Assembly (NCBI GenBank): GCA_028683835.1
Contig: JAQUHB010000002.1
Coordinates: forward strand, 1 to 64,000
DNA from: Sulfurimonadaceae bacterium
GTDB taxonomy: Bacteria; Campylobacterota; Campylobacteria; Campylobacterales; Sulfurimonadaceae
Direction of reading: 5' to 3'
Length of the DNA: 64,000 bases
The notes under the pieces were generated by a model, which was not told the origin of the DNA, searched no databases, and worked only from the letters and a program-made list of their open reading frames with translations. Positions 18,136 through 49,647 of this stretch are shown in pieces (position 1 is the first letter of the stretch; every line of letters starts with the position of its first letter). Both the position numbers and the translations under genes were made by a program.

Positions 18136-18136
18136 C

Positions 18137-19246
18137 CTACGCCTTTATTTTTGGGATTTTTATATTCATATCTTCTATCATCCCCTTTTCTATATCAGAG
18201 TGACAGGCTTTACAGTTTGCTTTAGATTTTATCTCATTTCTACTAAATATACTTTTATCAATTGCTGCATGTCTTTTTTTCCAATAGGATGTCTGCGTTA
18301 TGGCAATAATATCTTGATCCCCTTTTATGGACTCCAATATATAAAAAGCACTCTCTTTAGTCGAACTCTCAGCCGAATTTTTCATCAAATACTCTTTGAT
18401 AGAAACCCTTGTCGGCTCATCAAGTGAAGCATCATCTCCAAAGTGATTATCTAAACCATCCATCATTTTGCTCCATGATGCACGAGGCAAGAGATGCGGC
18501 GGATAAAGAGTATGGCAAGAGGCGCATTCTGCTACGAATGCGGAGTTTTCTTGTTTATATGAGATTGGCAAATCTTTGCTTTTTGTCAAAACAGAATCAA
18601 AAAAAAGCGAATAGAACAAGACACCCGCCGCTGCGCCAAGCATCAGAAGAGAAAAGAGCTTTTGAAAAAGGTTTAACGTCACACTCGGTGCTTCGATATT
18701 TTTATGTCCGTTTACGATCGAACCTAAAGTATCCGTCTCTTTATCCATCACTCTATCAAAGATAACTCCGCTTACATGTAAGGCAACGAGTATCATTAAA
18801 AAGGTCGAGAAAAACTCATGTACCTCTTTAAAAAGTTTCATCTCTTTAAAATAGGGAGTATTTAAAAAGCTAAGAATGCCCCTTCCCTCTTGAATACCGT
18901 ATGTCAATATCCCCGTTATGACCGTTAAAAGTACGACTCCAAACATCGTTATCATCACAAATGAGGCTGCAGGATTGTGTCCTGCATATTTTTTGTGATT
19001 GAAAACATTGAAAACGAACTCTTTTAATTCTTTTATATGTAAGGAAAAATCTGAAAATCTTGAATACGCAGGGCCGACAAATCCCCAAAGTATTCTGTAA
19101 ATCACAAGCACACCAACCGCATAACCGAAGCTTACATGTAAAGTTGAAAGTTTGTCTTCATCACCGCTGAAATATGCGGTAAGGATAAAAGCGGCAAACA
19201 TCATATGAAAAATGCGAGTCGGTAGACTCCAGATATATGCTTTCAT
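18137..19246 (-). CDS. Cytochrome b561-type membrane subunit fused to a diheme c (DHC-like) domain
   Basis: 369 residues. The N-terminal ~210 residues form four helices of a bacterial b561/hydrogenase-type cytochrome b with His in LPTRIFHMMFA, TLHVSFGYAV, FKEVHEFFS and ALHVSGVIF. After a fifth helix (LFSLLMLGAAAGVLFYSLFF) comes a periplasmic diheme c domain with CASCH near 244 and CKACH near 350. Its middle (LYPPHLLPRASWSKMMDGLD then NHFGDDASLD) matches the separate DHC protein encoded next. It likely passes quinol electrons through DHC to the SHP-like protein. The fused DHC-like tail is unusual. It lies 9 bases from the DHC gene. Confidence 0.85.
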   Translation of the reverse strand: MKAYIWSLPTRIFHMMFAAFILTAYFSGDEDKLSTLHVSFGYAVGVLVIYRILWGFVGPAYSRFSDFSLHIKELKEFVFNVFNHKKYAGHNPAASFVMITMFGVVLLTVITGILTYGIQEGRGILSFLNTPYFKEMKLFKEVHEFFSTFLMILVALHVSGVIFDRVMDKETDTLGSIVNGHKNIEAPSVTLNLFQKLFSLLMLGAAAGVLFYSLFFDSVLTKSKDLPISYKQENSAFVAECASCHTLYPPHLLPRASWSKMMDGLDNHFGDDASLDEPTRVSIKEYLMKNSAESSTKESAFYILESIKGDQDIIAITQTSYWKKRHAAIDKSIFSRNEIKSKANCKACHSDIEKGMIEDMNIKIPKIKA

Positions 19247-23689: not shown

Positions 23690-24301
23690 TTATCCTGCTA
23701 CAAAAACTCTTCCCTGTCTTATCTCTATAACTCCATCGAGTTCGGATTCAAGCAGTTTTTCACCATACTGTGCTATCGCCTCATCATACGTCGGAGATGT
23801 TTTACAAAATTTTATGAACTCATCTTCGATCTTATCTCCACTTCTAAGACCACTTATCTGTGCTACAAAGTTTTCAATATCATAAATCGCTTCTGCTTTC
23901 CCATCTTGAAGCAAGCGGTTTGTCGCACTGCTTTCACCAATGCGATGAGGAAGTACATAGATTTTTTTGTCCATTTCCATAGCGAAATCTATACTTCTCA
24001 TACTTCCACTTTCAAGTTCAGCTTCACTCACAATCAAAACATCACCAAGAGCAACAACGAGCTCATTTCTCACAACAAAACTCCAAGAAGTAGCTTTAAA
24101 ATCATTATCAAACTGACTGAGGAGAAGCCCTTCTTTTTCTATTGAGGAGAGTAAGTTTTTATTTATTGCGGGATATTTATGATTTAAGCCATTGGGTAAA
24201 ACTGCGATGGTATTTGAACTTTTTGCCCCGTTATGTGCAATAGCATCAACGCCCATTGCACCGCCACTTACAATGCAAATACCAGCTCTTGAAAGAGCAA
24301 A
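23690..24301 (-). pseudogene. dprA: dprA, 3' portion, cut off by the transposon
   Basis: The C-terminal three-quarters of the DNA-processing protein DprA: AGICIVSGGAMGVDAIAHNG, AVLPNGLNHKYPAINKNL, SWSFVVRNELVVALGDVL and EAELESGSMRSIDFA are Rossmann-fold landmarks of the family. The chromosomal reading frame starts abruptly at 24301 with TTT GCT CTT, where the transposon begins; a TTG inside the element end at 24313 would only add three foreign residues. The missing 5' part is at 49475-49647. DprA loads RecA on incoming single strands in natural transformation. Without its N-terminal region this fragment is unlikely to be functional. Confidence 0.95.
24297..24301. repeat. 5-bp target-site duplication (left copy)
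   Basis: GCAAA directly flanks the left TGT end; the identical GCAAA follows the right end at 49475-49479. Five-bp duplications are standard for Tn7-family insertion. Confidence 0.95.
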
Positions 24302-24326
24302 TGTCAATTCCAAGAATAAGTTGGAA
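24302..24326 (+). repeat. Left terminal inverted repeat
   Basis: Starts TGTCAATTCCAAGAATAAGT and ends TGGAA. Pairs with the right end (49450-49474, reverse strand) at 20 of 25 positions without gaps. Confidence 0.93.
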
Positions 24327-24496: not shown

Positions 24497-26041
24497 ATGT
24501 CAGAAATATTTTGTGTTGTATGGAAAAATATGAGTTTTGGTAGCTTTCTAAAATCTTATCTTAAAGAGACATTTTTAGCGATCTTTATTGTCTTAATGAC
24601 TGCATTTTTATTTTTAGGTGCAAGATATACTGCATATAAATTCGATATAACAAGCCTAAAAAGTGTTGATACAGAAAAATTAGATGCTCTTTTGATACAA
24701 TTTTTTAAAGATGATTTTCAGCATAAATTTGTAAAAAATGATTTTTTACATTTCTATAGCGATGTAGGTTATTTATTACAAAGCAAGCAGATTAATATTA
24801 ATAATTACTCTTTATCTGAACAGTTTTTGGAAGCTCGAAATAAAAAAACCTACACCCGCTCAATGCAAGCCTTTGAACAAGGTTCAATGTTTGCAATTTC
24901 TGAAAAACTAAAAGATAGATTTCCAGAAATTAATACATTTTATATAAATCCTACAAACACTACTCAGAATATATATTTAAAAATTTATACACATGATAAT
25001 AAAATCTATCTAATCAATAAACCGTCATTCGACAAATTAAATACCAAAGAATTTATACATTTTGAAACACTTGGTGCAATTTTTGTTATTCCATCAGCAG
25101 AAATATATAAATCCTACAATCGCTCACTTGTTGGCATGATAGATATTGCTAAAGCAAATGATAAACAAGTACTAACAAATTTTGAAACTTCTGTTTCAGG
25201 CTTTTTAAAAGAGCTAATTATAGGGATTCTGATCCTGATTTTTGCATTACTGTATAGTGTTATAAAACATCTTCAGAAAATTTTTGTTAGAAAAGAAGAA
25301 ATATACAAGGATATATACAAGAGGGAAGAAGAAATCACTCGGAGAGAGGAAATAGTTTTTAATATCGAGCATATTTTACAACATGATACTAAAACAAATA
25401 TAGATGAACGTAATGAATATCTAACGCAACTCTATCATGATATAAAGAATTTAAATACTAACTCAAGTACAGAATCTATTCAAGATATGATCGTATTTCT
25501 TTTTGCTTTGGATCTAACAGTTAAACTTTCCAATGACTACATTAGAAGTACACCATTAAAAGTTGCACACTTCATAGCACATCTACAAAAAGAAAAATTA
25601 TTTAAATATGCCGAAGGGAACTTGGATTCATATGGAGAAATAGGTAAAAAAATACTTGAGAAAGTAATCATATTTGATATAAATCCTCAATTAGGCAAAT
25701 TAGATGACTTCCCTATCGCAAATGAGTTTTTTGAAAACGAGTTTACATGTGCAGTATTTCGACTCATTAATAATGCATTAAAACATTCATCCGATCACAA
25801 AGCAGAAATAAAAATCGGGTATGATTTCACCAATACGTTCAACATTACAATCATAAATGAAGTGGAAAACGTTGACAAAAGTTTATACAATATAGAAACT
25901 TCACTGAGTGGAGATGACGGAATTAAAAATATCTCTCATGCTAGAGAAAGTATAAAAAAATTTGATATGGTCATTGATTATGAACAAGATAAACAAAATT
26001 CTAAAATTTTAACTATTATTAAAAGGATTGGGGATGCTTAA
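24497..26041 (+). CDS. Transmembrane histidine kinase carried by the transposon
   Basis: 514 residues. A first helix near residues 25-42 (FLAIFIVLMTAFLFLGAR), a periplasmic domain of about 190 residues and a second helix near 235-255 (LKELIIGILILIFALLYSVI) precede a coiled coil rich in Glu/Arg. The likely phosphoacceptor is in QLYHDIKNLNTN. The ATPase domain has an N box (FRLINNALKHSSDHKAE) and a G box (GDDGIKNISHARESIKKF) but is divergent. It overlaps the receiver gene by 8 bases. It is the first gene inside the left end, 195 bases from the terminus. The input signal and its role in the element are unknown. Confidence 0.8.
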   Translation: MSEIFCVVWKNMSFGSFLKSYLKETFLAIFIVLMTAFLFLGARYTAYKFDITSLKSVDTEKLDALLIQFFKDDFQHKFVKNDFLHFYSDVGYLLQSKQININNYSLSEQFLEARNKKTYTRSMQAFEQGSMFAISEKLKDRFPEINTFYINPTNTTQNIYLKIYTHDNKIYLINKPSFDKLNTKEFIHFETLGAIFVIPSAEIYKSYNRSLVGMIDIAKANDKQVLTNFETSVSGFLKELIIGILILIFALLYSVIKHLQKIFVRKEEIYKDIYKREEEITRREEIVFNIEHILQHDTKTNIDERNEYLTQLYHDIKNLNTNSSTESIQDMIVFLFALDLTVKLSNDYIRSTPLKVAHFIAHLQKEKLFKYAEGNLDSYGEIGKKILEKVIIFDINPQLGKLDDFPIANEFFENEFTCAVFRLINNALKHSSDHKAEIKIGYDFTNTFNITIINEVENVDKSLYNIETSLSGDDGIKNISHARESIKKFDMVIDYEQDKQNSKILTIIKRIGDA

Positions 26042-26585
26042 TATATGGTTTATTGATGACAATGATGCTTTCTTAAAAACGATACGTACATGCCTTGGTG
26101 TCAAACAAAAATCTATGAGTGGAGTTTATAAAAACTCTGTTTCCATAACTATTCTTGATGCAAATATTGACGGAAGTAGCATTGTAAATACGATTCGTGA
26201 TTCAGGACATAAAACATCCCATATACCTGACTTTGTTTTTTTGGATTTAAGATTTCCTATAGACAAAAGACAGGCAAGTACAAACATTGATAATGATCCA
26301 TTAAAATTAAGTGGAATTAAAATACTTGATGCAATAATAGAAAATGATGTATATAAATCTACGATTCCTATTATTTTTACTGCAGTAAGTCTTGACCAAC
26401 ATGTAAAAGATTCGTTGACTAAACGAATGAGTCTTCAAAAAAGAAGAATTTTAATAAAAGAAAAATTTCCGGATATGAAAGACATGAACATTTCTATCGA
26501 TGGAATAGATGGATTTATAGCTTCAAAAAATTGTGATTCTTTACAGGAATTGGTTGAGAAGCTTTTGCATAAAATGGGAAAATAA
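26034..26585 (+). CDS. Receiver-only response regulator partner
   Basis: 183 residues from ATG at 26034, with AAGGA 6 bases upstream (TTG at 26028 is the alternative). LNIWFIDDNDAF holds the acidic pair, FVFLDLRFPID the likely phosphoacceptor Asp, and PIIFTAVSLD the conserved Thr. The loop between them is expanded and no DNA-binding or enzymatic output domain follows. It may signal by protein contact. Translationally coupled to the kinase. This is atypical enough that the pair may be a dedicated sensory switch for cargo or transposition. Confidence 0.75.
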   Translation: MLNIWFIDDNDAFLKTIRTCLGVKQKSMSGVYKNSVSITILDANIDGSSIVNTIRDSGHKTSHIPDFVFLDLRFPIDKRQASTNIDNDPLKLSGIKILDAIIENDVYKSTIPIIFTAVSLDQHVKDSLTKRMSLQKRRILIKEKFPDMKDMNISIDGIDGFIASKNCDSLQELVEKLLHKMGK

Positions 26586-27632: not shown

Positions 27633-28289
27633 ATGAGCGTCAGAAAAATAAAAAAGAGCTACATCTCTTGTACCGGCTATTTTGCAAGCAATAAAAATAA
27701 AGCACAGATTGCATTTGAATCAACACTTGAAAGAGACTTTTACATGCTTCTTGAGTTTGACAACAATGTCATTAAGTTTGAAGAACAGCCTATGCGAATT
27801 AAATATGAACACACGAATAAAAAGCGAAAATATACGCCGGATACTCTGGTAACCTACAAAGACGGTACTCAAAAACTTTATGAGGTCAAATATCTTGACG
27901 AATTTAAAAGTGATCCAAAACTCCAGTATAAAATAGACATTTTAAAAGAACACATTTTAAAAGAGTACAGCATCGAGTTTGATGTATTTACAGATGATAT
28001 GATCAATGGAATTTATTTGGATAATTTAAAATTTCTCTATAAATTTGTCAATGTTCCTATACTAGATGATAAACTTGACTCTGTTCAAAAAATCATTCAT
28101 AAAAACGAAGTAATATCAGTCCAGCAAATCTTAGCAAGTTTCACAGACAGCAAAATCAAACAACTCGAATACATTCCATATATTTGGCATTATGCGTGCC
28201 ATCATATCGATCAGCTCAATCTTCATGACAAACTGAATATGAATACGAACATATATTTTAAAGACTACATTCGACATGAAAAAAATTGA
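27633..28289 (+). CDS. tnsA: TnsA, Tn7-like transposase endonuclease subunit
   Basis: 218 residues. The restriction-type catalytic core is visible: Glu in FESTLERDFYMLLEFD, Asp in KYTPDTLVTYKDG and ExK in KLYEVKYLDE. FEEQPMRIKYEH lies between them. TnsA cuts the 5' strands at the transposon ends, allowing cut-and-paste movement. A C-terminal helical region then probably contacts TnsC. The stop overlaps the tnsB start by 14 bases. Presence of TnsA separates this element from Tn5053/Mu-type relatives. Confidence 0.93.
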   Translation: MSVRKIKKSYISCTGYFASNKNKAQIAFESTLERDFYMLLEFDNNVIKFEEQPMRIKYEHTNKKRKYTPDTLVTYKDGTQKLYEVKYLDEFKSDPKLQYKIDILKEHILKEYSIEFDVFTDDMINGIYLDNLKFLYKFVNVPILDDKLDSVQKIIHKNEVISVQQILASFTDSKIKQLEYIPYIWHYACHHIDQLNLHDKLNMNTNIYFKDYIRHEKN

Positions 28290-30114
28290 ATTCGAAAACG
28301 GCAGCGAGGTTTATTATCAGAATAGAGAATACACAGTCTTTCGCGCTGTAAATATAAATGAAATTGCTATCAAAGATCCTCTCACCAAAGAACAACTTAT
28401 AGTACCTATTTCAAAACTTTCTTCTACCAAGAGACAAGAAGAGCCACATCCCTTAGAAGAATACTCCAAAACAGACTGGAATGCCGCAAAGAATAAATAT
28501 GAAATCATTAAAGATCTTGTCTTTAAAAAACGTTCCCTTGAGGTTATCAAGGAAGTTGCAAGTAAAGCCGGTGTCAGTAAAACCACGATATATGAATGGC
28601 TTAAAAAATATGAACAAACTTCAGATATCAGTTCGTTAATCTCACAAACTTCAAAACGTGGCAAAAAAGGTTCGCGTTTGGACACAGATACTGAAAACGT
28701 AGTGTCTCAAATCATCAATGAAATGTATTTGAACAAACAAAGATACAGTTTTCAAAGAATCTACAACAAAATCAAAATGGAATGCAAAAAACTCGGTCTG
28801 TCAGCACCGCATTCTAATACTGTCCGAAATAGAATCGATAACATAGATCCAAGAGAATCACTGAAAAAACGCCACGGACATAGAGCCTACAAACAGCAGT
28901 TTGTAGAAGCATCTGGTGAATATCCTGAAGGAAACTACCCTTTTGAGGTAATTCAGATCGATCATACGCCTATGGATATTATTGTTGTTGATAAAGTGTA
29001 TAGAAAACCTCTTAAGAGACCGTATCTAACGGTGGCAATCGATGTCTATTCAAGAATGATTGCTGGAATCTATATCTCTTTAGAAGGGCCTGGATACTAT
29101 AATGTCAGCCAGTGCCTCTTTAGTGTTTTTTCAAAGAAAGATGATCTTCTGCAAAAATATGAGATACCAGGAGAATGGAATATTTACGGAATCCCGAGGG
29201 TCATCCATGTAGATAATGGTGCTGATTTAGTCTCTTATGATATGCAACGCGTATGCGACGAATTTGGCATCACTTTGTTCAAGCGCCCCGTCGGCCGCCC
29301 AGAATTTGCTGGTAGTATAGAAAGAGCTTTAAAGACTATCAACAGTCAAACACATGACCTACCAGGTACTACAAAATCAAATATCCAAGCCAAAGGGGAT
29401 TACGATTCACAAAAATATGCAACATTTACAATTGAAGAATTAACTAAATGGATTCTAATTCATATTGTGACTACTTATCATAAAAATTATCACAGCGGTA
29501 TAGGGATGTCACCCGAAGCAAAATATCTTCAGGGAATATTCGGTGATGACGAAAATCCTGGAACAGGAACACTTCCGCCGATATCAGATCATCTTGATGA
29601 TGTAAGAATTGCTCTCTTGCCTGCTTTTTTTAGAACTGTTCAAAGAGAAGGCATTGCGCTTGATGGCATTTACTACTATTCCGATGTGCTCAGATATTGG
29701 ATCAATAAAACCGATGACAAAGGTGAAAAGATCAAACACAAGATAAAAAGAGACCCCTATAATATAAAGACCATCTACTTTTACGATCCTGAACTGAAAA
29801 AATATTTTGATATCCCCTCAAGAAAACTTTCTGCACCATCTATGACACTTTGGGATATGTATGCTGCCAAAAGACACCTCAAAGAAAAACATAAATTAAA
29901 CTACAATGAAGACGACATATTTGCTGCGTATCAGATGCAAGAGAAGATAGAAGAACAGAGCGCACAACTGACAAGAGAATCTAAACGCAAACGAGCAAGA
30001 GCCTCTAATGAGAATCTTGTGCAAAAAACTAATACTATACCAGAGCAGCAAAACTATGAGTCTCTATTTGCAAATATAAAAATATTTGACGTATTTACAA
30101 GAGACGAATCATGA
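28276..30114 (+). CDS. tnsB: TnsB, DDE transposase
   Basis: 612 residues. An N-terminal helix-turn-helix (SLEVIKEVASKAGVSKTTIY) precedes the integrase-type catalytic domain with D229 in VIQIDHTPMD, D313 in RVIHVDNGAD and E349 in FAGSIERALK; D313 and E349 are separated by 35 residues, the classical D35E spacing. A Mu-transposase-type beta-barrel and a basic C terminus (SKRKRARASN) follow. TnsB binds the end repeats and joins 3' ends to target. It overlaps tnsA upstream and tnsC (4-base ATGA) downstream. Confidence 0.96.
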   Translation: MKKIEFENGSEVYYQNREYTVFRAVNINEIAIKDPLTKEQLIVPISKLSSTKRQEEPHPLEEYSKTDWNAAKNKYEIIKDLVFKKRSLEVIKEVASKAGVSKTTIYEWLKKYEQTSDISSLISQTSKRGKKGSRLDTDTENVVSQIINEMYLNKQRYSFQRIYNKIKMECKKLGLSAPHSNTVRNRIDNIDPRESLKKRHGHRAYKQQFVEASGEYPEGNYPFEVIQIDHTPMDIIVVDKVYRKPLKRPYLTVAIDVYSRMIAGIYISLEGPGYYNVSQCLFSVFSKKDDLLQKYEIPGEWNIYGIPRVIHVDNGADLVSYDMQRVCDEFGITLFKRPVGRPEFAGSIERALKTINSQTHDLPGTTKSNIQAKGDYDSQKYATFTIEELTKWILIHIVTTYHKNYHSGIGMSPEAKYLQGIFGDDENPGTGTLPPISDHLDDVRIALLPAFFRTVQREGIALDGIYYYSDVLRYWINKTDDKGEKIKHKIKRDPYNIKTIYFYDPELKKYFDIPSRKLSAPSMTLWDMYAAKRHLKEKHKLNYNEDDIFAAYQMQEKIEEQSAQLTRESKRKRARASNENLVQKTNTIPEQQNYESLFANIKIFDVFTRDES

Positions 30115-31034
30115 TGCAAAGTACATCAGCACTTCCAAACATCGATGATCTTAAAAATGCGGACGACGAAGAAAGAATAAGTTTCATAAGAAAGACGAAG
30201 TGGCTCAACTATCCTTTGGGGCAAAAAATATTAGACCAGCTTGAAGATCTCAAAAAATATGAACAGAACAAAAGTAGAGTCACGAGCATACTGATCATAG
30301 GCTCTGGAAACAGTGGAAAAACAGCTTTACTTAACCGCTTTATGGAGATACATCCGCCCTATGATATGTTCGAAAGTAATCCAGACCGGCTGACCACAGA
30401 ATTTTTCAATGAATATAATGCATTCGGAATCCCGGTTGTCTATATTGCGGCACCAGCCGAACCAAGTGAGACCAGACTGTATAGCATTATTTTAAATACC
30501 CTCAGTGCACCTTTCAAAGAGCGGGATACTGTTTCCCGCAAACAGTTTTTAGTCGAATATTACTGCAAAGTGCTCCATGTAGAGGTTCTCATTATCGATG
30601 AAATTCATAACATTCTTGCAGGCTCTCCAGCAAAACAACGTCAAATGATGAACTCTATTAAAAATCTTAGCAACAATCTTAAAATCCCAATCGTTCTAGC
30701 AGGTATTAAAGATGCTCTCAGAGCAGTTAGTACAGATACACAAATAAGCAGCAGATTTCGGCCAGTTTATCTACCAAAATGGACAATGGATCAAGATTAT
30801 ATCTCTCTACTTGGCACCATTGATTCAATTCTTCCGCTAAGAAAAAAATCTTCACTGCTCACTACTTCAGTCGCTTTGGAAATTTTAAAAAGATCACATG
30901 GAATTCTAGGACACATTATAGGTCTCACGCAAGCAGCCGCCATCCACGCCATTAAAACAAAAAGTGAAAAAATTACTCTTAATGAAATTCAAAATTGCGA
31001 ATATGATTCTGGAGAGGACACACGTGATGTATGA
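30111..31034 (+). CDS. tnsC: TnsC, AAA+ transposition regulator (TniB family)
   Basis: 307 residues. Walker A GSGNSGKT at residues 64-71 and Walker B VLIIDEIHNIL with D163-E164, followed by a sensor region (IPIVLAGIKDALRAV) and SSRFRPVYLPKW. It is shorter than canonical Tn7 TnsC and closer to TniB. It forms the ATP-dependent platform linking TniQ to TnsB. Start and stop each overlap their neighbours by four bases (ATGA), so tnsABC-tniQ is one tightly coupled operon. Confidence 0.94.
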   Translation: MMQSTSALPNIDDLKNADDEERISFIRKTKWLNYPLGQKILDQLEDLKKYEQNKSRVTSILIIGSGNSGKTALLNRFMEIHPPYDMFESNPDRLTTEFFNEYNAFGIPVVYIAAPAEPSETRLYSIILNTLSAPFKERDTVSRKQFLVEYYCKVLHVEVLIIDEIHNILAGSPAKQRQMMNSIKNLSNNLKIPIVLAGIKDALRAVSTDTQISSRFRPVYLPKWTMDQDYISLLGTIDSILPLRKKSSLLTTSVALEILKRSHGILGHIIGLTQAAAIHAIKTKSEKITLNEIQNCEYDSGEDTRDV

Positions 31035-32164
31035 TCAAAAAAATCAATAATCCGAAGTTTTTGAGCGCAAAGTTTCTTATTATTCCTTCTCCTCTTCCGA
31101 ATGAACTTCTTAGCTCATGGCTCGTTAGAACAGCCTACGCTCACCATACGCATCCTCATACTTTTATGAATCTTCACTTTGGACAAAAGTACGGATATGT
31201 CTTTCATAATAATATTGATATCTCTATCTCAAACAAAGATATTGAAAAAATTCTCAATAAATGCCGTCACAAAATAGATGTAAAGAATCTTACTCTTAAA
31301 ACATACGAGACCTATCTTCAGGAAAAAATCATCAACAATGGATCTAACAAGTTTTTATGCGATCTGAGATTCTGTCCTCTGTGTCTCAAAGAGGATCCTG
31401 TTGTCTATTTCAGAAAACAGTGGAAAATAGCTTTTTATACGATCTGCCAAAAGCACCTCTGCTTTTTGCTTACAGAGTGTCCAAACTGCAATACGAAAAT
31501 TGATATCTCCAAAATGCATAGCAATACGTACAGTTTCAAATATTGTTACAAATGCAAGTTTGAGCTGTCTTCATCTCATCCTTCCTTGATAGATTCACAT
31601 CTTCTGCAACATTTGCCTCAACATAAAAAATTAATCTCCGCTCTTCACAATGGATATATTACTTTTCAGAAAAGGCCTGTGTACTCTTTTTATTTTTTTG
31701 ATGTGCTTTTGCAGTTGACCAAAAAACTGTTACGAAATAATAAACATAAATTTTTCGATTTTCATGAGTCTTTTCAATATCTTAAATCGATCAATAAGAT
31801 GCGAATAAAACCTATCGGTAATTTGATTACAATACAACAACAATATATACTTTTTACACTCCTGATACATCTGTTTGAAAACTATCCCTATAATTTCATA
31901 GAGTATATCAAAGCTAACAAACTCAGCCATTGGCAGCTGACGCAGGACATGGATTATGTGCCGTTTTGGTACGAGACTCTCGTTAATGAAATATCCCCGC
32001 AAGTTGTGCCATTTTCAAAACTTGTGACGGACGAGGAAATTGAAGCAGCGAAAAAATATCTTCTTGCAAACAATATACCTATAAATAAGGCTAATTTGAC
32101 TCGCTTACTTGGATGCAATTTTTTTAGCAGTTATAATGATTTAAAAGAAAGAATCAGTCATTGA
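31031..32164 (+). CDS. tniQ: TniQ/TnsD-family target selector
   Basis: 377 residues. The N-terminal PSPLPNELLSSWLVRTAYAH is the TniQ signature, and two zinc-finger pairs follow: CPLCLKEDP with QKHLC, and CPNCNTKI with CYKCKF. A helical C-terminal region of about 170 residues could bind target DNA. At 377 residues it is between the short TniQ of CRISPR-associated transposons and the about 500-residue TnsD. As the only selector-type gene recognised in the element, it is the first candidate for recognition of dprA. Last gene of the tns operon. Confidence 0.92.
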   Translation: MIKKINNPKFLSAKFLIIPSPLPNELLSSWLVRTAYAHHTHPHTFMNLHFGQKYGYVFHNNIDISISNKDIEKILNKCRHKIDVKNLTLKTYETYLQEKIINNGSNKFLCDLRFCPLCLKEDPVVYFRKQWKIAFYTICQKHLCFLLTECPNCNTKIDISKMHSNTYSFKYCYKCKFELSSSHPSLIDSHLLQHLPQHKKLISALHNGYITFQKRPVYSFYFFDVLLQLTKKLLRNNKHKFFDFHESFQYLKSINKMRIKPIGNLITIQQQYILFTLLIHLFENYPYNFIEYIKANKLSHWQLTQDMDYVPFWYETLVNEISPQVVPFSKLVTDEEIEAAKKYLLANNIPINKANLTRLLGCNFFSSYNDLKERISH

Positions 32165-32698: not shown

Positions 32699-33712
32699 TT
32701 AAAAAAGTACCCCTGCCTCTTCATAAAGCTTTTGCAGATAATCTGCAAGGTATGTCTTATTTCTTGAACTGTGAATTTTACTAAATTCTTCGTCATCAAA
32801 AGTATATAAAACATAAATGCCATCAACATCGACGATGGCATAGTATTTACCATCAAACGATATAAACTCATAAACATCTTCTTTATGTAGTAGTGTGTAC
32901 ACATTCTCTTCAGGAGGACCTGTATATATTTTCTTACACCCTTCATAAAATAACTGCATATGAGCAATAGCATTTTTTCGTTTATATGTCATACTTCTTG
33001 GATCAAGATAGAGTTCTTTAGCTATAGAATTAATATCATAAACTTTTTGTTGCACGGATGTTTGGATACTTTTTTTCTGCTCTTTTTGATACAGTGTATT
33101 ACTAACAAAGACTTCCACGTGGGTTTTCTTTGGAAATACAAACTTTGGAGCAAGTAATTTTTTAGAATTGTTTTTTTCAACGAGAAGAGTTTGAAGTTGC
33201 TCCTTTTTTGTATATCTGGTTGTTGAGATCATTTTATTCAGATCTATTTCTAGAATCAATGTCTCAATGGTATAGCTCTTTGCAAATCTATAACCTTTAT
33301 GAGATTCTTCCGGCGTTAAGAAGTAAACATTAAGCATACCGATAGAGGTAGTCAACTCTAAATCAAATCCGTTATTCTTTTTTTCTGCAGTAAGAATTTT
33401 TACTAAAGATGTATTTTTGTTGTATGGGATTTTATATAGACCATTCGTTTTATTAAGATCCAGATTAATATAACGAGTCTCTTTTAATATCTGTTTTGCC
33501 ATATCTCGCATAGAAACCCAAAAAGAGTAACTACATGTAGTCTGAGCTTTATCAGAATGGCTAAAGTGGTGTTCATTAATATCACCTTGTCTTGCTTTAA
33601 GTCTCATACTACAAGAGGGGCAGATGCAGTTACATCTAAGCCCTCGCGTGACTTCATCTATATCAACAAGTTTTTTTAGCGTATTTGAATAAGCAAAAGG
33701 TAAAAGTGCCAC
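32699..33712 (-). CDS. CoiA-like N-terminal zinc-domain protein
   Basis: 337 residues from GTG at 33712, preceded by a strong GGAGGG. The N terminus has CNCICPSCSMRLKARQGDIN then EHHFSHS, the Cys/His arrangement seen at the start of CoiA-family competence proteins and related putative nucleases. No clear nuclease motif is visible in the rest, which alternates beta-like and helical stretches. Cytoplasmic. The zinc domain is well supported; a nuclease or competence role is only a possibility, but notable in an element that also breaks dprA. Confidence 0.65.
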   Translation of the reverse strand: MALLPFAYSNTLKKLVDIDEVTRGLRCNCICPSCSMRLKARQGDINEHHFSHSDKAQTTCSYSFWVSMRDMAKQILKETRYINLDLNKTNGLYKIPYNKNTSLVKILTAEKKNNGFDLELTTSIGMLNVYFLTPEESHKGYRFAKSYTIETLILEIDLNKMISTTRYTKKEQLQTLLVEKNNSKKLLAPKFVFPKKTHVEVFVSNTLYQKEQKKSIQTSVQQKVYDINSIAKELYLDPRSMTYKRKNAIAHMQLFYEGCKKIYTGPPEENVYTLLHKEDVYEFISFDGKYYAIVDVDGIYVLYTFDDEEFSKIHSSRNKTYLADYLQKLYEEAGVLF

Positions 33713-34248: not shown

Positions 34249-34509
34249 TTATACGAATGGATTTTCCACAATATCTACTTTCTTTACTTCAACATGCTCA
34301 GGAAGATTACTACCTTTAAGCTCATCAATAGCTGAATCTATGATACGTTTAAGCTCATACGCATATTGTAGTCCCTCTTTGTCCTTAGTGAGATCGATTG
34401 AACCATAGATGCTTATTCTATCAAGTCTGTTCTCGACAGTAAGGTCAGCTCCAATTGTAAGTGCGTCTGATTCGTTTTGATAAGCTTGAAATGGTTTATT
34501 TGTTGGCAT
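34249..34509 (-). CDS. Small protein coupled to the exported nuclease
   Basis: 86 residues, acidic, no signal peptide, so cytoplasmic. FQAYQNESDALTIGADLTVE and RISIYGSIDLTKDKEGLQYA are its most distinctive parts. Its ATG overlaps the nuclease stop by one base (TAATG), so production is coupled. An inhibitor or immunity protein protecting the cell from nuclease before export is plausible but unproven. Not recognised as a named family. Confidence 0.65.
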   Translation of the reverse strand: MPTNKPFQAYQNESDALTIGADLTVENRLDRISIYGSIDLTKDKEGLQYAYELKRIIDSAIDELKGSNLPEHVEVKKVDIVENPFV

Positions 34510-35378
34510 TAGTATCCTTTATTGTAGTTATGGATTTTTCTTTCTAATTTATCAAAGAAACCGTTGCCTTGAGATTGAGGTTTTTCACTTTGGGTGTTAG
34601 TCTCATTCTTTGAACTGCCTCCATGATAAGGTTTTGGTACAGGGAGAGTCGCTACATGATTTTTTACATCTTGACTCATTTTTGGAAAGAGATTGATACC
34701 TATAAGTTTTTCAAGTTCTGCAATACTTATGACTTTATAATCATTACCTGAAGCATTTTCTGTAAGATATGCAGCTGCTTGATTGGATGATGGGATATAG
34801 ATAGCTTTAAACAGCTTAGTTGGGACAAATACTCTTCCATTCATACGTTTGATGTTACTACCCTCAAATATAGGACCTGTAATGATATAGATTTCTCCCT
34901 TTTGTTGAGTGAGATATCTTGTTGCTCCTTCTATGCTTGACCAGATACCTGTATTGTTATTATGATCTTGAGGAACCATGTTGGCTAGAGTAAAACACTC
35001 ATGATTACTTTGAGGGTCTGTAAAGTCTGCACTAGGAGCCATGTGACCTCTGTCATATCCTGAATGTGCATAGTCATTTAATTCTGCTCTATCATCACTA
35101 GAGAGTTTTTCCTCTGCATGGAAAGCATTATCTCGTTTAGCTTTTTGGCTGAGTTTCTCTTTTGTGAGATGTTCAGCACTCCATAGAGGTGTTCTTGAGA
35201 CACCTGAGTGCATAACTGCAAATTGTTGATAGCATAGCTCTTTAGTCTTTGCTGTGAGCTTGGTGTTGATGAAATCTGGGGCTATGTTGCCAAAGTAGAT
35301 ATTTGAACACGATGTAGAACTCGCATATAAAGTTGCAGCTGTTAAGAGTGGAAGTAGTAAGAGTTTTAGTTGGTTCAA
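34509..35378 (-). CDS. Exported DNA/RNA non-specific endonuclease (NUC1 family)
   Basis: 289 residues from TTG at 35378 (AAGGA 8 bases upstream). Signal peptide MNQLKLLLLPLLTAATLYAS. The catalytic motif is DRGHMAPSADF with His112, and the metal site is in NMVPQDHNNNTGIWSSIE (Asn and Glu150). VFVPTKLFKAIYIPS and FPKMSQDV complete the beta-beta-alpha-metal fold of the Serratia nuclease/EndoG family. The C terminus is basic and Ser/Gln-rich. Campylobacter integrated elements carry relatives that degrade incoming DNA and suppress natural transformation. The active-site residues look intact. Confidence 0.92.
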   Translation of the reverse strand: MNQLKLLLLPLLTAATLYASSTSCSNIYFGNIAPDFINTKLTAKTKELCYQQFAVMHSGVSRTPLWSAEHLTKEKLSQKAKRDNAFHAEEKLSSDDRAELNDYAHSGYDRGHMAPSADFTDPQSNHECFTLANMVPQDHNNNTGIWSSIEGATRYLTQQKGEIYIITGPIFEGSNIKRMNGRVFVPTKLFKAIYIPSSNQAAAYLTENASGNDYKVISIAELEKLIGINLFPKMSQDVKNHVATLPVPKPYHGGSSKNETNTQSEKPQSQGNGFFDKLERKIHNYNKGY

Positions 35379-42391: not shown

Positions 42392-42853
42392 TTAATCATG
42401 TATAGCTTTTAAAATTCTCACAGGACTGACTTTGAAAAGAAATTCTGCTGCTTCATCCCAACTCATAGGACATGGCAAAGTGATCTGCTTAATAAAACCA
42501 TTCACATCTTGAACAAGATAGTTGCTTGTTTTTATACTTCGCTCATTCTCAGCTTCTTGAAGAGATACGAGATCTATTTTCTCAAACTCTTTAGAAATTT
42601 CTTCTTTAGTACCTTTGAGGATTTTGTATTTATATAGGCTGTTTAATGTCTTGACGGATAGTATGTCGTCTTCTAGCGACAAATCAACGATCAAACTAGT
42701 GCGATGTACCAAAGTATGACTAGTGAGGGCTTTTTCGTTATCAATAAAAACCATCCCGTGATCGACGTAAAATGTGCCTTCGCAGTCTTTATAATTTGTT
42801 AGTACACTAAAGTTAGTACTATCTATTAAACGAGCTCTGATTGTAGATTTCAT
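42392..42853 (-). CDS. Hypothetical protein, last gene of the phosphoesterase operon
   Basis: 153 residues, not recognised. Mostly beta-like in the first half (KSTIRARLIDSTNFSVLTNY), acidic and helical in the second, ending PVRILKAIHD. No membrane segment or Cys motif. The ATG overlaps the preceding phosphoesterase stop by 4 bases, so all three genes are coupled. A regulator or substrate-binding partner of the enzymes is possible. Confidence 0.65.
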   Translation of the reverse strand: MKSTIRARLIDSTNFSVLTNYKDCEGTFYVDHGMVFIDNEKALTSHTLVHRTSLIVDLSLEDDILSVKTLNSLYKYKILKGTKEEISKEFEKIDLVSLQEAENERSIKTSNYLVQDVNGFIKQITLPCPMSWDEAAEFLFKVSPVRILKAIHD

Positions 42854-43428
42854 AATAATTTTCTTTTTATAAGAAGTTCACCTAGTCGAATAGGAGTATA
42901 CCCAATTGCTTCAACACTAACATTTATACAATGGCTTTCATCAAGTTTCATTGAATGAATATGTCCGTGAATGTTAATGTCACAGCATTCATCATGAAAG
43001 ACTTTTGAGAGATACTGCCAATGTTCATTATCATATCCATCACTTACAATCGGATAATGACTAAAGAGGATTTTAATACCATCGACTTCGGCAATATGAT
43101 AAGCAGGGTTTCCTTTACTCGAAAAATCGATTACCTCTGTAAAACCGTTTTCAAGATAAACTTGCGGAGCCTTGTCATGATTTCCTCTTAGCAAATATTT
43201 TGTGCCATTGAGTTTTAAAGCCCATGTTTGAATAGATTCGCTTTTCCAGCTAAAGTCTCCAAGGTGAAATACAATATCATCTACACCTACTGTCTTGTTC
43301 CACAGATCAGCCATACGCTGATCTGGATTGTCGCCCAGAACAGTCTTGCGGTCCGGCTCATACTCTAAAACGTTGGCATGACCAAAATGAGTATCAGCGA
43401 CGATGAACGTATCGTTAGTGATTTTCAT
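42850..43428 (-). CDS. Calcineurin-like metallophosphoesterase (small)
   Basis: 192 residues. All blocks of the dimetal phosphoesterase fold are present: FIVADTHFGHANVL (DxH), IVFHLGDFSW (GD), KYLLRGNHDKAP (GNHD), IKILFSHYPI and CDINIHGHIHS (GHxH). It resembles small phage- or plasmid-borne phosphoesterases. Its nucleic acid or nucleotide substrate is unknown. It overlaps its neighbours by 4 bases on each side. Confidence 0.88.
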   Translation of the reverse strand: MKITNDTFIVADTHFGHANVLEYEPDRKTVLGDNPDQRMADLWNKTVGVDDIVFHLGDFSWKSESIQTWALKLNGTKYLLRGNHDKAPQVYLENGFTEVIDFSSKGNPAYHIAEVDGIKILFSHYPIVSDGYDNEHWQYLSKVFHDECCDINIHGHIHSMKLDESHCINVSVEAIGYTPIRLGELLIKRKLL

Positions 43429-44237
43429 ATTTCTATACTCTTCATATTGCTTTTGTAAAGTTCATATGCATTTACATGACACTGCACACCCTCAAATTCA
43501 TAGCTGTATGAGCTGTGTGTATGACCAAAAATCCAATGTTTCGCAGTTGTATTTTTCAGAAATTCGTGACCGTTAAAGCAATAAAAAGTAGTTGATCTAT
43601 TGTTACGATACTCTTGCGATATGTGCTCTGCTAAGAACGATGGATTGATATGAGTAATCATGACATCGCATTTTTGATATACAGCTTCAATTTTTGGAAG
43701 TTCGATTTTATACGGATCATCGAAGTTTTTGATTCCTTTGAACTGCTTGCCCTCTGGCATCAAAACTTTCCACATTCCGTTCATACCTTCGATACCTGCA
43801 AGTGGAAAATAAGTTCGTGAGAATGCAGAAGAGTACCAACCCATCGCTCCGCCGAATCTGATACCATCGATCTCGATTACATCTCCATCGAGGCAGTATA
43901 TCCCCTCTTTGTCATTGATGAGTTTCTTCATCTCATCGGCTCTTGCGAATGAATCATCATAATCATCTTCCATTATTCTATTCACTAGACAATAATCGTG
44001 ATTTCCAAGTACACAGATAATCGCCTTATATCCGTAGATCCTCTTTATCATATCCAATAAAGAGATATTCTGCTGATTGTTGTGTCCAAGATCACCGGCA
44101 ACGACAAGAACGTCACCGATCTCTCTGCCATCTTTTAAAAAATATTTATCATATGTTTTTCGTACATCTACCTTTGAACTGTAAATTTGTTTGAAATAGT
44201 AATCAAAATGCAAATCGCTTAAAATATCTATTTTCAT
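43425..44237 (-). CDS. Calcineurin-like metallophosphoesterase (large)
   Basis: 270 residues. MKIDILSDLHFDYYF (DxH), VLVVAGDLGHNNQ (GDLG), ICVLGNHDYCLV (GNHD), CDVMITHINPSF and KHWIFGHTHSSYSY (GHTH) are all intact, so it should be catalytically active. First gene of a three-gene operon with a second phosphoesterase. Its 5' end and promoter are partly duplicated at 35532-35660. A CAGTATAAT box lies on the reverse strand about 30 bases upstream of the start. Substrate unknown. Confidence 0.9.
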   Translation of the reverse strand: MKIDILSDLHFDYYFKQIYSSKVDVRKTYDKYFLKDGREIGDVLVVAGDLGHNNQQNISLLDMIKRIYGYKAIICVLGNHDYCLVNRIMEDDYDDSFARADEMKKLINDKEGIYCLDGDVIEIDGIRFGGAMGWYSSAFSRTYFPLAGIEGMNGMWKVLMPEGKQFKGIKNFDDPYKIELPKIEAVYQKCDVMITHINPSFLAEHISQEYRNNRSTTFYCFNGHEFLKNTTAKHWIFGHTHSSYSYEFEGVQCHVNAYELYKSNMKSIEI

Positions 44238-44546: not shown

Positions 44547-45386
44547 TTAAAATAAGAATCCTCCGTTGCAAAACCAATGACTCTCAGATAGTGCTTTATA
44601 CATTGCTGTTTTCCAAGAATTTTTATTATTCATAAATTGACTTTGATATTCTTCATATAAATGTTCTTGTACACTTGCCATACCATTGCTTCTATGGAGT
44701 TTTGATAAACGATATTGTATTCCGGATAGCTCTTCTGCAGCATGTGAGCTGTATAAATCATTTAATTCAAATAAATTAAAGTGTACTTTTAGTCTCTTTT
44801 CTATCATTGTCTCTACGGGGGAAGTTTTTATATAAAATTGAAGGCTAGGTGGACTAATTTCATTGACTGAAGCGAATAAATATTGTTGATCTGAGATATC
44901 ATCATAGTATGGATGTATAATTTCAGTATCGGATGAAGTAGGTTGATAAGTATCTTTTATTTTGTTGCAATCAGCACAAGCCGGTATTAAATTTATAGGT
45001 GATACTGCAAAAACAGGGTACTTTGTTTTTGGCAACACATGATCTAATGAAGATACTGTTCTTTCTCCACATAAGGGACATTTACGATTCTTTGCTGCTA
45101 ATTTTAGCTTGTCATAATATTTTCGACCAGGTTGTTTTTTTTTAACTAATTTATTTTCATACACATTTTTCATTTCCTTCATTGTTACAATACCATTAAC
45201 ATCTGTGGAAGGAGACAGGCTATATAACGAATTAGATGCTGCTTTTATCTCATAGTTATCAGTAGAATTTTGAATATAGGAACTTATACTCTGCAATTTT
45301 GCTTTAAAGGTTTCATCTTCAAAATTAGAAATACAATCTTCAAATACTTTTATTACATTGTCTGTAGGTTTATTAATATTCATCAT
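44547..45386 (-). CDS. HNH endonuclease, Septu PtuB-like
   Basis: 279 residues. The HNH centre is complete: CPLCGERTVSSLDHVLPK with the paired Cys, the DH, then NLIPACADCNKIKD with the second CxxC. N-terminal and C-terminal regions are helical. The gene directly follows an SMC-like ATPase gene with no spacer, the PtuA-PtuB arrangement of the Septu anti-phage system, in which the HNH subunit cuts DNA under control of the ATPase. No reverse transcriptase or ncRNA next to it, so this is not the retron form. Confidence 0.82.
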   Translation of the reverse strand: MMNINKPTDNVIKVFEDCISNFEDETFKAKLQSISSYIQNSTDNYEIKAASNSLYSLSPSTDVNGIVTMKEMKNVYENKLVKKKQPGRKYYDKLKLAAKNRKCPLCGERTVSSLDHVLPKTKYPVFAVSPINLIPACADCNKIKDTYQPTSSDTEIIHPYYDDISDQQYLFASVNEISPPSLQFYIKTSPVETMIEKRLKVHFNLFELNDLYSSHAAEELSGIQYRLSKLHRSNGMASVQEHLYEEYQSQFMNNKNSWKTAMYKALSESHWFCNGGFLF

Positions 45387-46904
45387 CTATGATAGATTCC
45401 TATTTTGCTTAAGATGCATTTTTACGCTAGCAAGAGCTTTTGCTTCCGATCCCAACTGATTTCCAAAACTAGACTTAACAGATTCATAGTCCTCATTTCT
45501 ATCAACAGATTTTTGAATTAAATTGTAAAAGCCTGAATTACTTACTTCTAGTCCAAAAACCTCGTGAGTTAATACACCGACATTTTCACCAAATGTTTCT
45601 CTTTCAGGTCTTTCTGCTTTTGCAGAAATATTAGAACGGCTTAGAATCCATGTACAACTTTTTGGCACCTCTTGAAGGATCACCGGAGAATGTGTAGCAA
45701 TTATTGCAACACCATTTCTTAGAACTAATAGTTCTGATAAAGATCGTATGAAAGCTGCCAATAGAGGTGGATGTAAATGAGATTCCGGTTCATCTAACAT
45801 AACCAAAGTCTTTTCTTCTACTGTTTCTACTAATCTCGTAATGGTTAATAATACTATTTTATGTCCAGAAGAAAGTTTTTTAAATATCTCAGAAGCCTCG
45901 TCTTTAAATTGTTGTTTATCTTCAATTTCAATAAGCTGTAATATCTCAGATTCTTTAAACATAGGATCAGACTCAAGTGTTGTTACAGCATTTATCCACC
46001 TTTCTTTTCTATTCCCTAACTTACAGTTTTCAAGACTTTTAACAAATTCATTTTTCAAAACAGTAGGGCTTTTAGGTAGACTATCCTTTTCATCATTCAC
46101 TTTAACCTTTTTCAAACCTATATAAGAGTATTTCAAGCCTTTTGTTCTATCTTTTTGATCCATCCGAGGTTCTGATTCATCAAATGCACTAAACGAAACC
46201 GAAACAACGTTTGCAAAAAGTATTTCTTCATCAGATACAAAAACACCATGCTTAGTTGTCCTTTCACTTGAAAATAAAGCATTCAACATATTACTTAATA
46301 AGTGTGTCTTGCCTACACCGTTCCGTCCAATAAGTACATGCACGTTTGTTGGAGGATTTGAGGTGGGTTCTACATTAAAAGATAACTCCATATGCAGATC
46401 ACTATTCCTTGGTTTTGGTGGAAAAAATTGAAAATCATAAGGAGTACGTATTGCTCCTCCATGTGCTATCCTATGGAATTGTCCTCTAACTTCCTGTGAA
46501 GAAACATCTCTAAGTAATGAAATACGTGTAACACGTTCTTTTTGTGCTCGTTCAAATAGTTCTAAATCAAAGGCAAAATCACGCAATGCTCTTAATATCT
46601 CATTACCTATTTCATCATCTAAGTTATTAAGATGACTGTAGTAACTTGTATCTTGTCCTACTGAAAAAAAAGCATCCATTAATACTTCAAAAGTCGGTGG
46701 AATAGCGGCTCTCCTTTGTTTCTCTACCATATTAAACTGACCAATTTTTATTTGTCCAATATGATGCCTAACATTGTTGCTATCATAATAGTGAAGAATA
46801 TATAGCGTACCAAATTCAAACCAGTCATCCCAATTATCATTAATTAGATATACGGTATTGCTTGTTGCTAAATTGGGTAATATGTCTAAAACTTGAAATT
46901 GCAT
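45387..46904 (-). CDS. SMC/OLD-like ATPase, Septu PtuA-like, with an N-terminal extension
   Basis: 505 residues. Walker A is GRNGVGKT at 193-200, the ABC-type signature region is KLSSGHKIVLL, Walker B is TLVMLDEPESHLHP and the switch is IIATHSPVILQEVP. The N-terminal ~180 residues (VYLINDNWDDWFEFGTLYIL) are not part of the standard ATPase and are unfamiliar; in most PtuA the P-loop is nearer the start. They may add a sensor. The stop touches the HNH gene directly. AAGGG precedes the ATG. Confidence 0.82.
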   Translation of the reverse strand: MQFQVLDILPNLATSNTVYLINDNWDDWFEFGTLYILHYYDSNNVRHHIGQIKIGQFNMVEKQRRAAIPPTFEVLMDAFFSVGQDTSYYSHLNNLDDEIGNEILRALRDFAFDLELFERAQKERVTRISLLRDVSSQEVRGQFHRIAHGGAIRTPYDFQFFPPKPRNSDLHMELSFNVEPTSNPPTNVHVLIGRNGVGKTHLLSNMLNALFSSERTTKHGVFVSDEEILFANVVSVSFSAFDESEPRMDQKDRTKGLKYSYIGLKKVKVNDEKDSLPKSPTVLKNEFVKSLENCKLGNRKERWINAVTTLESDPMFKESEILQLIEIEDKQQFKDEASEIFKKLSSGHKIVLLTITRLVETVEEKTLVMLDEPESHLHPPLLAAFIRSLSELLVLRNGVAIIATHSPVILQEVPKSCTWILSRSNISAKAERPERETFGENVGVLTHEVFGLEVSNSGFYNLIQKSVDRNEDYESVKSSFGNQLGSEAKALASVKMHLKQNRNLS

Positions 46905-48299: not shown

Positions 48300-49403
48300 T
48301 TAACTTTGAGTATTGACATCACTAAACACAAACTTTTTGAAATTTTCGTACCACTGAATAGTTTCTTTCCCTCTAAACATCATATAGAATGACGAAATGG
48401 CAAATTTGTAAAAAATATAATTAAATTCATCATAAACAAACTTTTTTAATTTTTTATATGACATTGCATGTTCAAAAAAAAACTTCATAATTAGAGGTGC
48501 ATAATAATTCATAAATTCATTTCCATTAGAAAAATGACGAGATCGAAATATCCAAACATTTTCTTTAATAGAAGGGTGTTGAATTGTAATAATTAGAAAA
48601 CACCGTTGAAAGTCTTCTATACTTGAATGTTCTACCTTAAAAGAATAACTATGAAAATCCATTCCATCTATTACATTAATTCCAAGAAAACTAAAATCAT
48701 ATCCCACAGTGCTATTTCTATAATTGCAGCGTGCAACGTCAAATTCTTTTTCAAGTTTTAATAAAATAGCGTAATAAAAATTTTCGTGTACAAAAGAAAA
48801 ATATCTTTGAACATTATCTAGTTCCAATTCTTGATATCCTTCATCAATCCTCGATTGATGTGATGGAAATCTAAACAACAAAGTTTCTAATGGATACTTA
48901 ATATTCTCTTGTCCAATTACATTAGCAATAAGTAAACTATCATTTAATTCTTCAACACCTAAAGTAACATAAAATGGGCTTAAGGTAGGAAGAATACTCT
49001 TTATTGGCTTATTGGACTTGTTTACTGCTGTTTGAAAATAATGATAATAAAACCCATTAGAGTAAATACTACTGGAAAGAATTTTTCCTAAATGTAGAAT
49101 ACTTTTATAATTTAACTTAGTATTGATTTCAAAATCTATTCGTATATCACCATTTTGTCCTTTACTGGTACTTAAATATAACAAAGATAGACTACCACTT
49201 TTTGCAGCCTTATCGAATATTTTCCATGGTGCATAAAAATAATGATAAATAGCTTTACATGTAAGTAAAAGTGTGTACTGTTGATACTCAAAAACATACG
49301 CCCATTCGTCCAAATCAAGATAAGTATATTTAAAGGTATTCGTAGGTTTAATAATTTCCCTCAATCTAACAAGCTTACCCTTAGATGGATCTATTAAAAA
49401 CAC
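48300..49403 (-). CDS. Orphan 367-residue protein beside the right end of the transposon
   Basis: Starts at GTG 49403 with AGAGG 6 bases upstream, only 72 bases inside the right end. Aromatic-rich and soluble: KYTYLDLDEWAYVFEYQQYT, then HYFYAPWKIFDKAAKSGSLS, PIKSILPTLSPFYVTLGVEE and a helical C terminus. Not recognised, and no Cys or nuclease motif was seen. A fixed place beside the end opposite the tns genes is where Tn7 keeps accessory transposition factors, so a transposition-linked role is possible. There is little room for a promoter; transcription may come from the disrupted dprA operon on the same strand. Confidence 0.65.
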   Translation of the reverse strand: MFLIDPSKGKLVRLREIIKPTNTFKYTYLDLDEWAYVFEYQQYTLLLTCKAIYHYFYAPWKIFDKAAKSGSLSLLYLSTSKGQNGDIRIDFEINTKLNYKSILHLGKILSSSIYSNGFYYHYFQTAVNKSNKPIKSILPTLSPFYVTLGVEELNDSLLIANVIGQENIKYPLETLLFRFPSHQSRIDEGYQELELDNVQRYFSFVHENFYYAILLKLEKEFDVARCNYRNSTVGYDFSFLGINVIDGMDFHSYSFKVEHSSIEDFQRCFLIITIQHPSIKENVWIFRSRHFSNGNEFMNYYAPLIMKFFFEHAMSYKKLKKFVYDEFNYIFYKFAISSFYMMFRGKETIQWYENFKKFVFSDVNTQS

Positions 49404-49449: not shown

Positions 49450-49474
49450 TTCCAGTTTGTTCTTGGAAATTACA
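49450..49474 (-). repeat. Right terminal inverted repeat
   Basis: On the reverse strand it begins TGTAATTTCCAAGAACAAAC and ends TGGAA, matching the left end at 20 of 25 positions. Confidence 0.93.
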
Positions 49475-49479
49475 GCAAA
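49475..49479. repeat. 5-bp target-site duplication (right copy)
   Basis: GCAAA, identical to 24297-24301 at the other boundary. Confidence 0.95.
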
Positions 49480-49647
49480 ACTCAAGTTATGTGTCATCAT
49501 TTTTGTATATTGCGAAGGTTTTCGGCTTCCCACTATAGAAATTTTCTTTTTCTCTAAAAGTGCAAGATTTCCACTATACTGAAGTGTCTGCGGATATTTT
49601 TTCATACTGATGAGTGCCTCTATTTTTTGTTCAATAGTGCCTCTCAT
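49475..49647 (-). pseudogene. dprA: dprA, 5' portion, cut off by the transposon
   Basis: Begins MRGTIEQKIEALISMKKYPQ and reaches KKISIVGSRKPSQYTKMM then THNLSFA, the first Rossmann strand region of DprA (IVGSRxxS). From here the frame runs 23 codons into the transposon and stops at 49405. This 173-bp piece plus the 607-bp piece at 23690-24296 make 780 bp, exactly 260 codons, reading NLSFALSRAGICIVSGG across the join. The start is 11 bases after the upstream deacetylase stop, so dprA was in an operon with it. Confidence 0.95.

Follow-up and report, generated by a model that had tools for sequence, protein, structure and literature searches.

Insertion into competence genes and secretion of DNases are two anti-transformation routes of mobile elements that were known separately before. 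Here we ask whether the two meet at one locus of a Sulfurimonadaceae bacterium, where a mobile element interrupts the competence gene dprA and carries an exported nuclease that the first-pass annotation took for a possible second block on natural transformation. The window, by which we mean the whole stretch of 64,000 nucleotides analysed, is contig C9 of a 2.5-Mb host genome in 88 contigs. Kinship with Sulfuricurvum kujiense places the host in Sulfurimonadaceae, Campylobacterota.

A Tn7-like element in the sole dprA of its host

The element spans 25,173 bp (24302-49474). It has TGT/ACA ends and lies between two identical copies of a 5-bp target-site duplication, GCAAA (24297-24301 on the left, 49475-49479 on the right). 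Its left end (TGTCAATTCCAAGAATAAGTTGGAA, 24302-24326, plus strand) matches the other end (TGTAATTTCCAAGAACAAACTGGAA, read inward, 49450-49474, minus strand) at 17 of 22 bases. Four plus-strand genes complete its Tn7-like character: tnsA (27633-28289; PF08722, E=5e-14), the transposase gene tnsB (28276-30114; rve and Mu-transpos_C), the ATPase gene tnsC/TniB (30111-31034; PF05621, E=5e-57) and tniQ, encoding the target-selection protein (31031-32164; PF06527, E=4e-22). A different delimitation of the ends, by CCAAG and an imperfect AATT repeat, was dropped; the TGT ends and GCAAA restore the dprA frame.

DprA delivers incoming single-stranded DNA to RecA and is needed for DNA uptake. In the window, its gene is split into a 3' (C-terminal) fragment (23690-24301, minus strand; PF02481, E=3e-38) and a 5' (N-terminal) fragment (49475-49647, minus strand; PF02481, E=2e-8), which are 90% and 95% identical, respectively, to the intact dprA of G400, the nearest relative tested. 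Joining the flanks minus one GCAAA gives ...THNLSFALSRAGICIVSGGAMG..., an in-frame DprA that agrees with the G400 protein (THNLSLALSKAGICIVSGGAMG). A search across the host assembly found no second dprA, so that the split copy is the sole one and the host has lost it through insertion of the 25-kb element with a 5-bp duplication. The host genome retains ComEC and has a full-length comM frame on another contig (C72); the window element sits in dprA, not in comM.

The remaining cargo is mixed. Near the left end, two genes (24497-26585) resemble a membrane histidine kinase and a response regulator, with no Pfam match at E 0.01. The defence cargo comprises a Septu-like gene set, with a PtuB-type HNH protein (44547-45386, minus strand; PADLOC PDC-M01B, E=4e-104) and a PtuA-type ATPase (45387-46904, minus strand; PADLOC PDC-M01A, 1e-205, and PtuA, 3e-191), and a further PADLOC candidate, PDC-S31. 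A metallophosphoesterase gene pair (42850-44237) recurs, at 34-39% identity, in two other dprA elements (G183 and G214) and near another nuclease-partner pair (L031, 16043-17545). The gene that adjoins the dprA 5' fragment (48300-49403, minus strand) has no Pfam match and shares a 32% identical stretch with the gene at the right end of the dprA element in G027. Genes of 341-569 aa without a Pfam match occupy the right end or lie close to it, on the side of the dprA 5' fragment, in eight dprA elements (window, G208, G185, G261, G321, G183, G027 and G214), and could encode a target selector or other transposition factor.

The exported nuclease and its small partner

The nuclease gene (34509-35378, minus strand) starts at TTG with the ribosome-binding site AAGGA and encodes a NUC1-family non-specific nuclease of 289 aa (PF01223, E=1e-44). 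Its active site is intact (DRGH, Asn142, Glu150), and D109, G111, N142 and E150 are invariant in 42 relatives. Its fold in the AlphaFold model (pLDDT 88) is that of the beta-beta-alpha metal (His-Me finger) enzymes. The model matches 2o3b, 7r6v and 1qae, and its matches include human EXOG and Anabaena NucA; 2o3b is NucA with its inhibitor NuiA. The N-terminus forms a hydrophobic, signal-like helix that ends near ASS, and a cysteine pair, C24/C49, is conserved. Among near full-length relatives, DRGH is kept in 92 of 93 and nearly all have a signal-like N-terminus, export being called from a hydrophobicity measure and inspection of N-termini. The first-pass annotation had thus read the enzyme correctly as a NUC1-family protein with a signal peptide and an intact DRGH/Asn/Glu site; its DNase activity is a prediction.

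Downstream, and overlapping the nuclease stop codon with its own start (TAATG), lies the gene of an acidic partner of 86 aa (34249-34509, minus strand; pI 4.6) that ends in an NPF tail, lacks a recognisable export signal in its sequence and is a putative nuclease inhibitor. Searches of Pfam, NCBIfam, PHROGs, PADLOC and PDB sequences gave no hit for it, and a profile of 51 partners, run against all PDB chains at E up to 5, matched none, NuiA included. The partner model (pLDDT 85) combines three strands with a single helix and has extended tails, and its fold gave no convincing match in the PDB. Searching one-genome-per-species data with the partner alone returned 80 loci. At nearly all of them a PF01223 gene of the same strand directly precedes the partner, and most of the few loci that lack one are truncated by the end of the contig. 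Pairing far beyond chance, together with the TAATG overlap and the missing signal peptide, bears out the earlier statement that the nuclease is coupled to a small cytoplasmic protein.

The genome loci belong to Campylobacterota, Geobacter relatives, Chlorobiaceae, Oxalobacteraceae, Acetobacterales and Thiothrix, and plasmids add Azospirillum, Cupriavidus, Gluconobacter and Acinetobacter. The pair is chromosomal in Oxalobacteraceae, Geobacter relatives and Chlorobiaceae and is found on many plasmids. Viral contigs contain the partner at one locus only, and the pair is present on a phage-like contig (L130) with a probable terminase gene. Judged by sequence, the partner is a previously undescribed family of 80-90 aa proteins that extends over several phyla. 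Short orphan partners that lack the NPF tail and have no nuclease nearby occur on Sulfuricurvum kujiense plasmids (L032-L034 and L046) and at L027; the orphan on pSULKU01 lies a few genes away from ParA/ParB genes. Downstream of the window pair, on the same strand, is a CoiA_N-like protein (32699-33712, minus strand; PF25164, E=7e-6, just under the cut-off). In a second genome, at L052 (5649-6686), a 52% identical protein likewise comes after the pair on the same strand, and the CoiA_N-like protein might be part of the nuclease-partner module.

Several features suggest that the partner is a NuiA-like cytoplasmic inhibitor of the nuclease: it lacks a signal peptide, its charge is opposite to that of the nuclease (median pI 4.8 for partners versus 8.6 for nucleases), and at several loci its frame is still present where the nuclease is truncated, frameshifted or gone. 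Moreover, among the 92 partners that adjoin a full nuclease, 91 have the C-terminal NPF tail, usually followed by one single residue, and the lone exception runs off its contig; none of the six orphan partners (of which about three are independent) has it. Pairwise distances of nucleases and partners correlate (r=0.86, 91 loci), which fits joint inheritance of the two genes but does not by itself prove contact. Alternatively, the small protein may serve as an export chaperone or a regulator, a role that would suit its predicted cytoplasmic location and co-translation and the presence, in some lineages, of a membrane protein gene between the two genes. Such a role looks unlikely to us, since persistence beside decayed nucleases, strong acidity opposite a basic nuclease and a conserved tail confined to paired copies are marks of an inhibitor. 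A third gene separates nuclease and partner at L030 (G214), L039 and L044/L045; it encodes an RDD family membrane protein in Cupriavidus (L039) and a LysE family membrane protein in Acinetobacter (L044/L045).

The putative inhibitor may nevertheless be dispensable, because it adjoins only two of the four PF01223 nucleases of the host. The window copy and a copy on C17 are each followed by a small partner, whereas those on C58 and C84 have no adjoining partner gene. The C58 nuclease has an intact DRGH and lies beside core genes. The C84 paralogue (L023, 5834-6622) has DKGE where DRGH is expected and may be catalytically dead.

Recurrence in dprA and comM elements

A TniQ search over 399 Campylobacterales genomes, combined with inspection of flanks, identified nine Tn7-like elements inserted in dprA (window, G208, G185, G261, G321, G183, G120, G027 and G214), with breakpoints near codons 60 and 97. 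In seven of the nine, the ends are TGT, the 5-bp duplications are exact and differ between elements, and the empty site is in frame; G183, whose ends did not resolve, and G120, whose contig is cut, were scored from flanking fragments only. dprA is therefore a recurrent target of Tn7-like elements in this order. Eight of the nine genomes lack an intact dprA. In the ninth, G185, the element itself brings along a complete DprA of 258 aa (L167/L177; element coordinates 18052-18828), close to the broken host copy, and this cargo protein may restore transformation or single-strand DNA handling. Eleven further elements are inserted in comM, five of them with exact duplications (G078, G116, G077, G245 and G208). 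A related Tn7-like element is present in G336 (L164/L165) as two identical copies outside dprA, one of them after a short FlhF-like frame; dprA is intact in this genome.

Exported nucleases of three families recur in these elements. An intact nuclease-partner pair is present in two dprA elements (window and G214) and a comM element (G078), and the G116 comM element retains a partner remnant. The window nuclease clusters with the C17 copy of its host and other Campylobacterota sequences, in a well-supported clade separate from that of G214, which indicates at least two independent captures. The nucleases of G214 and G078, one from a dprA and one from a comM element, are sister sequences and group with Sulfurospirillum. 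In addition, the dprA element of G321 and the comM element of G208 carry EndA/Dns-type nucleases with signal peptides, 82% identical to each other. The G183 dprA element contains an SNase that has a signal peptide, and the G381 comM element a PF01223 nuclease whose N-terminus is lipoprotein-like.

In total, 7 of 20 competence-gene elements carry an exported nuclease of the three families, versus 1 of 19 other Tn7-like elements (one-sided p=0.026); leaving out the window gives 6 of 19 versus 1 of 19 (one-sided p=0.045), and dprA elements alone, again without the window, give p=0.065. The control consists of the 20 kb beside TniQ in 18 other Tn7-like elements and G077 contig C2, scanned at this fixed length, and its single positive is a nuclease 18 kb from TniQ on that contig. 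An SNase in the G294 comM element, a partial match of uncertain export, was left out of the count. Across the order, the three families occur at about 0.31 per Mb, so that 182 kb of dprA elements contain 4 nucleases where 0.06 are expected, or 3 versus 0.05 without the window (assuming a mean genome of 2.1 Mb); the other Tn7-like elements are a fairer control than this order-wide rate. The enrichment is suggestive, as the families were picked post hoc, samples are small, p values modest and the elements partly non-independent. The nuclease is evidently optional, with 13 of the 20 competence-gene elements carrying none of the three families.

A proposed two-layer block and its precedents

These observations can be assembled into an anti-transformation module on a dprA-inserting Tn7-like transposon, made of the dprA break and an exported nuclease with a cytoplasmic inhibitor partner. 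Insertion into the sole dprA forms the first layer, through loss of DprA. As the second, by analogy with the nucleases of C. jejuni CJIE2/CJIE4 and with Vibrio IdeA, the exported NUC1 enzyme would cut double-stranded DNA before uptake, either in the periplasm or outside the cell. The partner, made in the cytoplasm from its overlapping start, would bind nuclease that is not yet exported and plug its active site, most likely with the conserved C-terminal NPF tail. It would thereby shield host DNA and RNA, as NuiA does for Anabaena NucA; the C-terminal end of NuiA reportedly reaches the catalytic metal of NucA. Jointly, the two layers would keep the host from swapping the occupied locus for an empty dprA allele by transformation. 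Both may be useful to the element because transformation can persist at a residual level after a competence gene is lost, as can happen for comM (PMC11472951), and a nuclease that acts before uptake would do so regardless of the host allele.

We put the chance that this module exists as described at about even. A broader version, in which a lineage of Tn7-like transposons is specialised on dprA with the two-layer block of gene break and exported nuclease, shares its nuclease cargo with comM elements and carries in the partner a new inhibitor family acting via the NPF tail, is somewhat less likely than not, and we advance it tentatively. With relatives of the nuclease and of the partner recurring in other elements that break uptake genes, the element probably blocks DNA uptake twice; the second block is plausible, and the comparison across elements has strengthened it. 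What stood of the earlier double-block claim is that the nuclease is cargo of an element that splits the sole dprA exactly, that the pair occurs in a second dprA element and a comM element, and that three nuclease families recur. What told against it is the majority of competence-gene elements that carry none of the three nuclease families, the cargo dprA of G185, which would undo the first block, and the abundance of the pair on plasmids and chromosomes, outside competence-gene elements. Once dprA is broken, moreover, selection for a second block should be weaker.

The wide distribution of the pair also bears on two explanations in which transformation is not the point. The pair could be cargo for defence that breaks down, within the periplasm, the DNA of phages or DNA entering by conjugation, with any effect on transformation a by-product. 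Its occurrence on many plasmids and on the phage-like contig would fit, as would the Septu-like PtuA/PtuB genes and candidate PDC-S31 in the same element and the richness of Tn7-like cargo in defence genes (PMC8649781). We nonetheless consider such a general barrier rather improbable: exported nucleases are scarce in Tn7-like elements outside competence genes, as counted above, and PADLOC has no model for the nuclease or the partner. Less probable still is a nutritional role, in which the secreted nuclease recovers phosphate and nucleotides from DNA and RNA in the environment, the partner shields the cytoplasm and the location in an element is incidental. The chromosomal loci in Oxalobacteraceae, Geobacter relatives and Chlorobiaceae and the intact C58 copy beside core genes of the host speak for it, but it leaves unexplained why the pair recurs in independent dprA- and comM-inserted elements and why EndA and SNase enzymes appear in the same setting.

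An interrupted competence gene and an exported nuclease are united here in one element, repeatedly and with unrelated nucleases, which makes the chromosome-curing conflict testable in one locus; the partner family may in addition be a handy inhibitor of NUC1 nucleases. The C. jejuni precedent cited by the first-pass annotation is real. Nucleases of mobile elements lower transformation 100- to 1000-fold, as reported for IdeA of V. cholerae and for the nucleases on CJIE1, CJIE2 and CJIE4 of C. jejuni (PMC4774983), and the C. jejuni enzymes include CJE1441 and CJE0566 (PMC3995785). Like the CJIE-type enzymes, the window nuclease lies inside a mobile element (24302-49474) and has the signal-like N-terminus of an exported protein. 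The carriers of CJIE2/CJIE4 (CJE0566, CJE1441) and CJIE1 Dns are prophages or integrated elements, whereas ours is a Tn7-like element in a competence gene. No relative of the partner was found in the sampled genomes of family f11, which we take to include Campylobacter. IdeA is likewise a mobile-element DNase that blocks transformation (PMC4774983), but it resides on an integrative conjugative element and belongs to another nuclease family than the window enzyme; a point of likeness is that the EndA/Dns nucleases of G321 and G208 are Endonuclease I enzymes.

The genes comK, comYC, comFA and comM appear in published lists of competence genes disrupted by mobile elements, and dprA does not (PMC4774983). 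A survey of Tn7-like target selectors treats comM with no mention of dprA (PMC10293859), competence is unmentioned in a survey of Tn7-like cargo (PMC8649781), and we found no description of dprA as a recurrent Tn7-like target in the open-licence literature. Tn6022/AbaR and ZooTsy are also mobile elements in a transformation gene and have a dedicated selector (PMC10293859, PMC11472951). No TnsF recombinase-like selector was identified in the window element, whose right-end gene lacks a Pfam match. The G078 element sits in the same comM region (GGGS...GILFFD) as Tn6022/AbaR and ZooTsy, which target comM, whereas the window element targets dprA. The pair itself is comparable to Anabaena NucA-NuiA: NucA has the family and fold of the window nuclease (2o3b), and NuiA is an intracellular inhibitor that overlaps the NucA DNA site (PMC5758888), although the 80-90 aa partner has no sequence match to NuiA. 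The window element would be a case of an already known phenomenon, suppression of transformation by mobile elements, and it brings with it an undescribed partner family.
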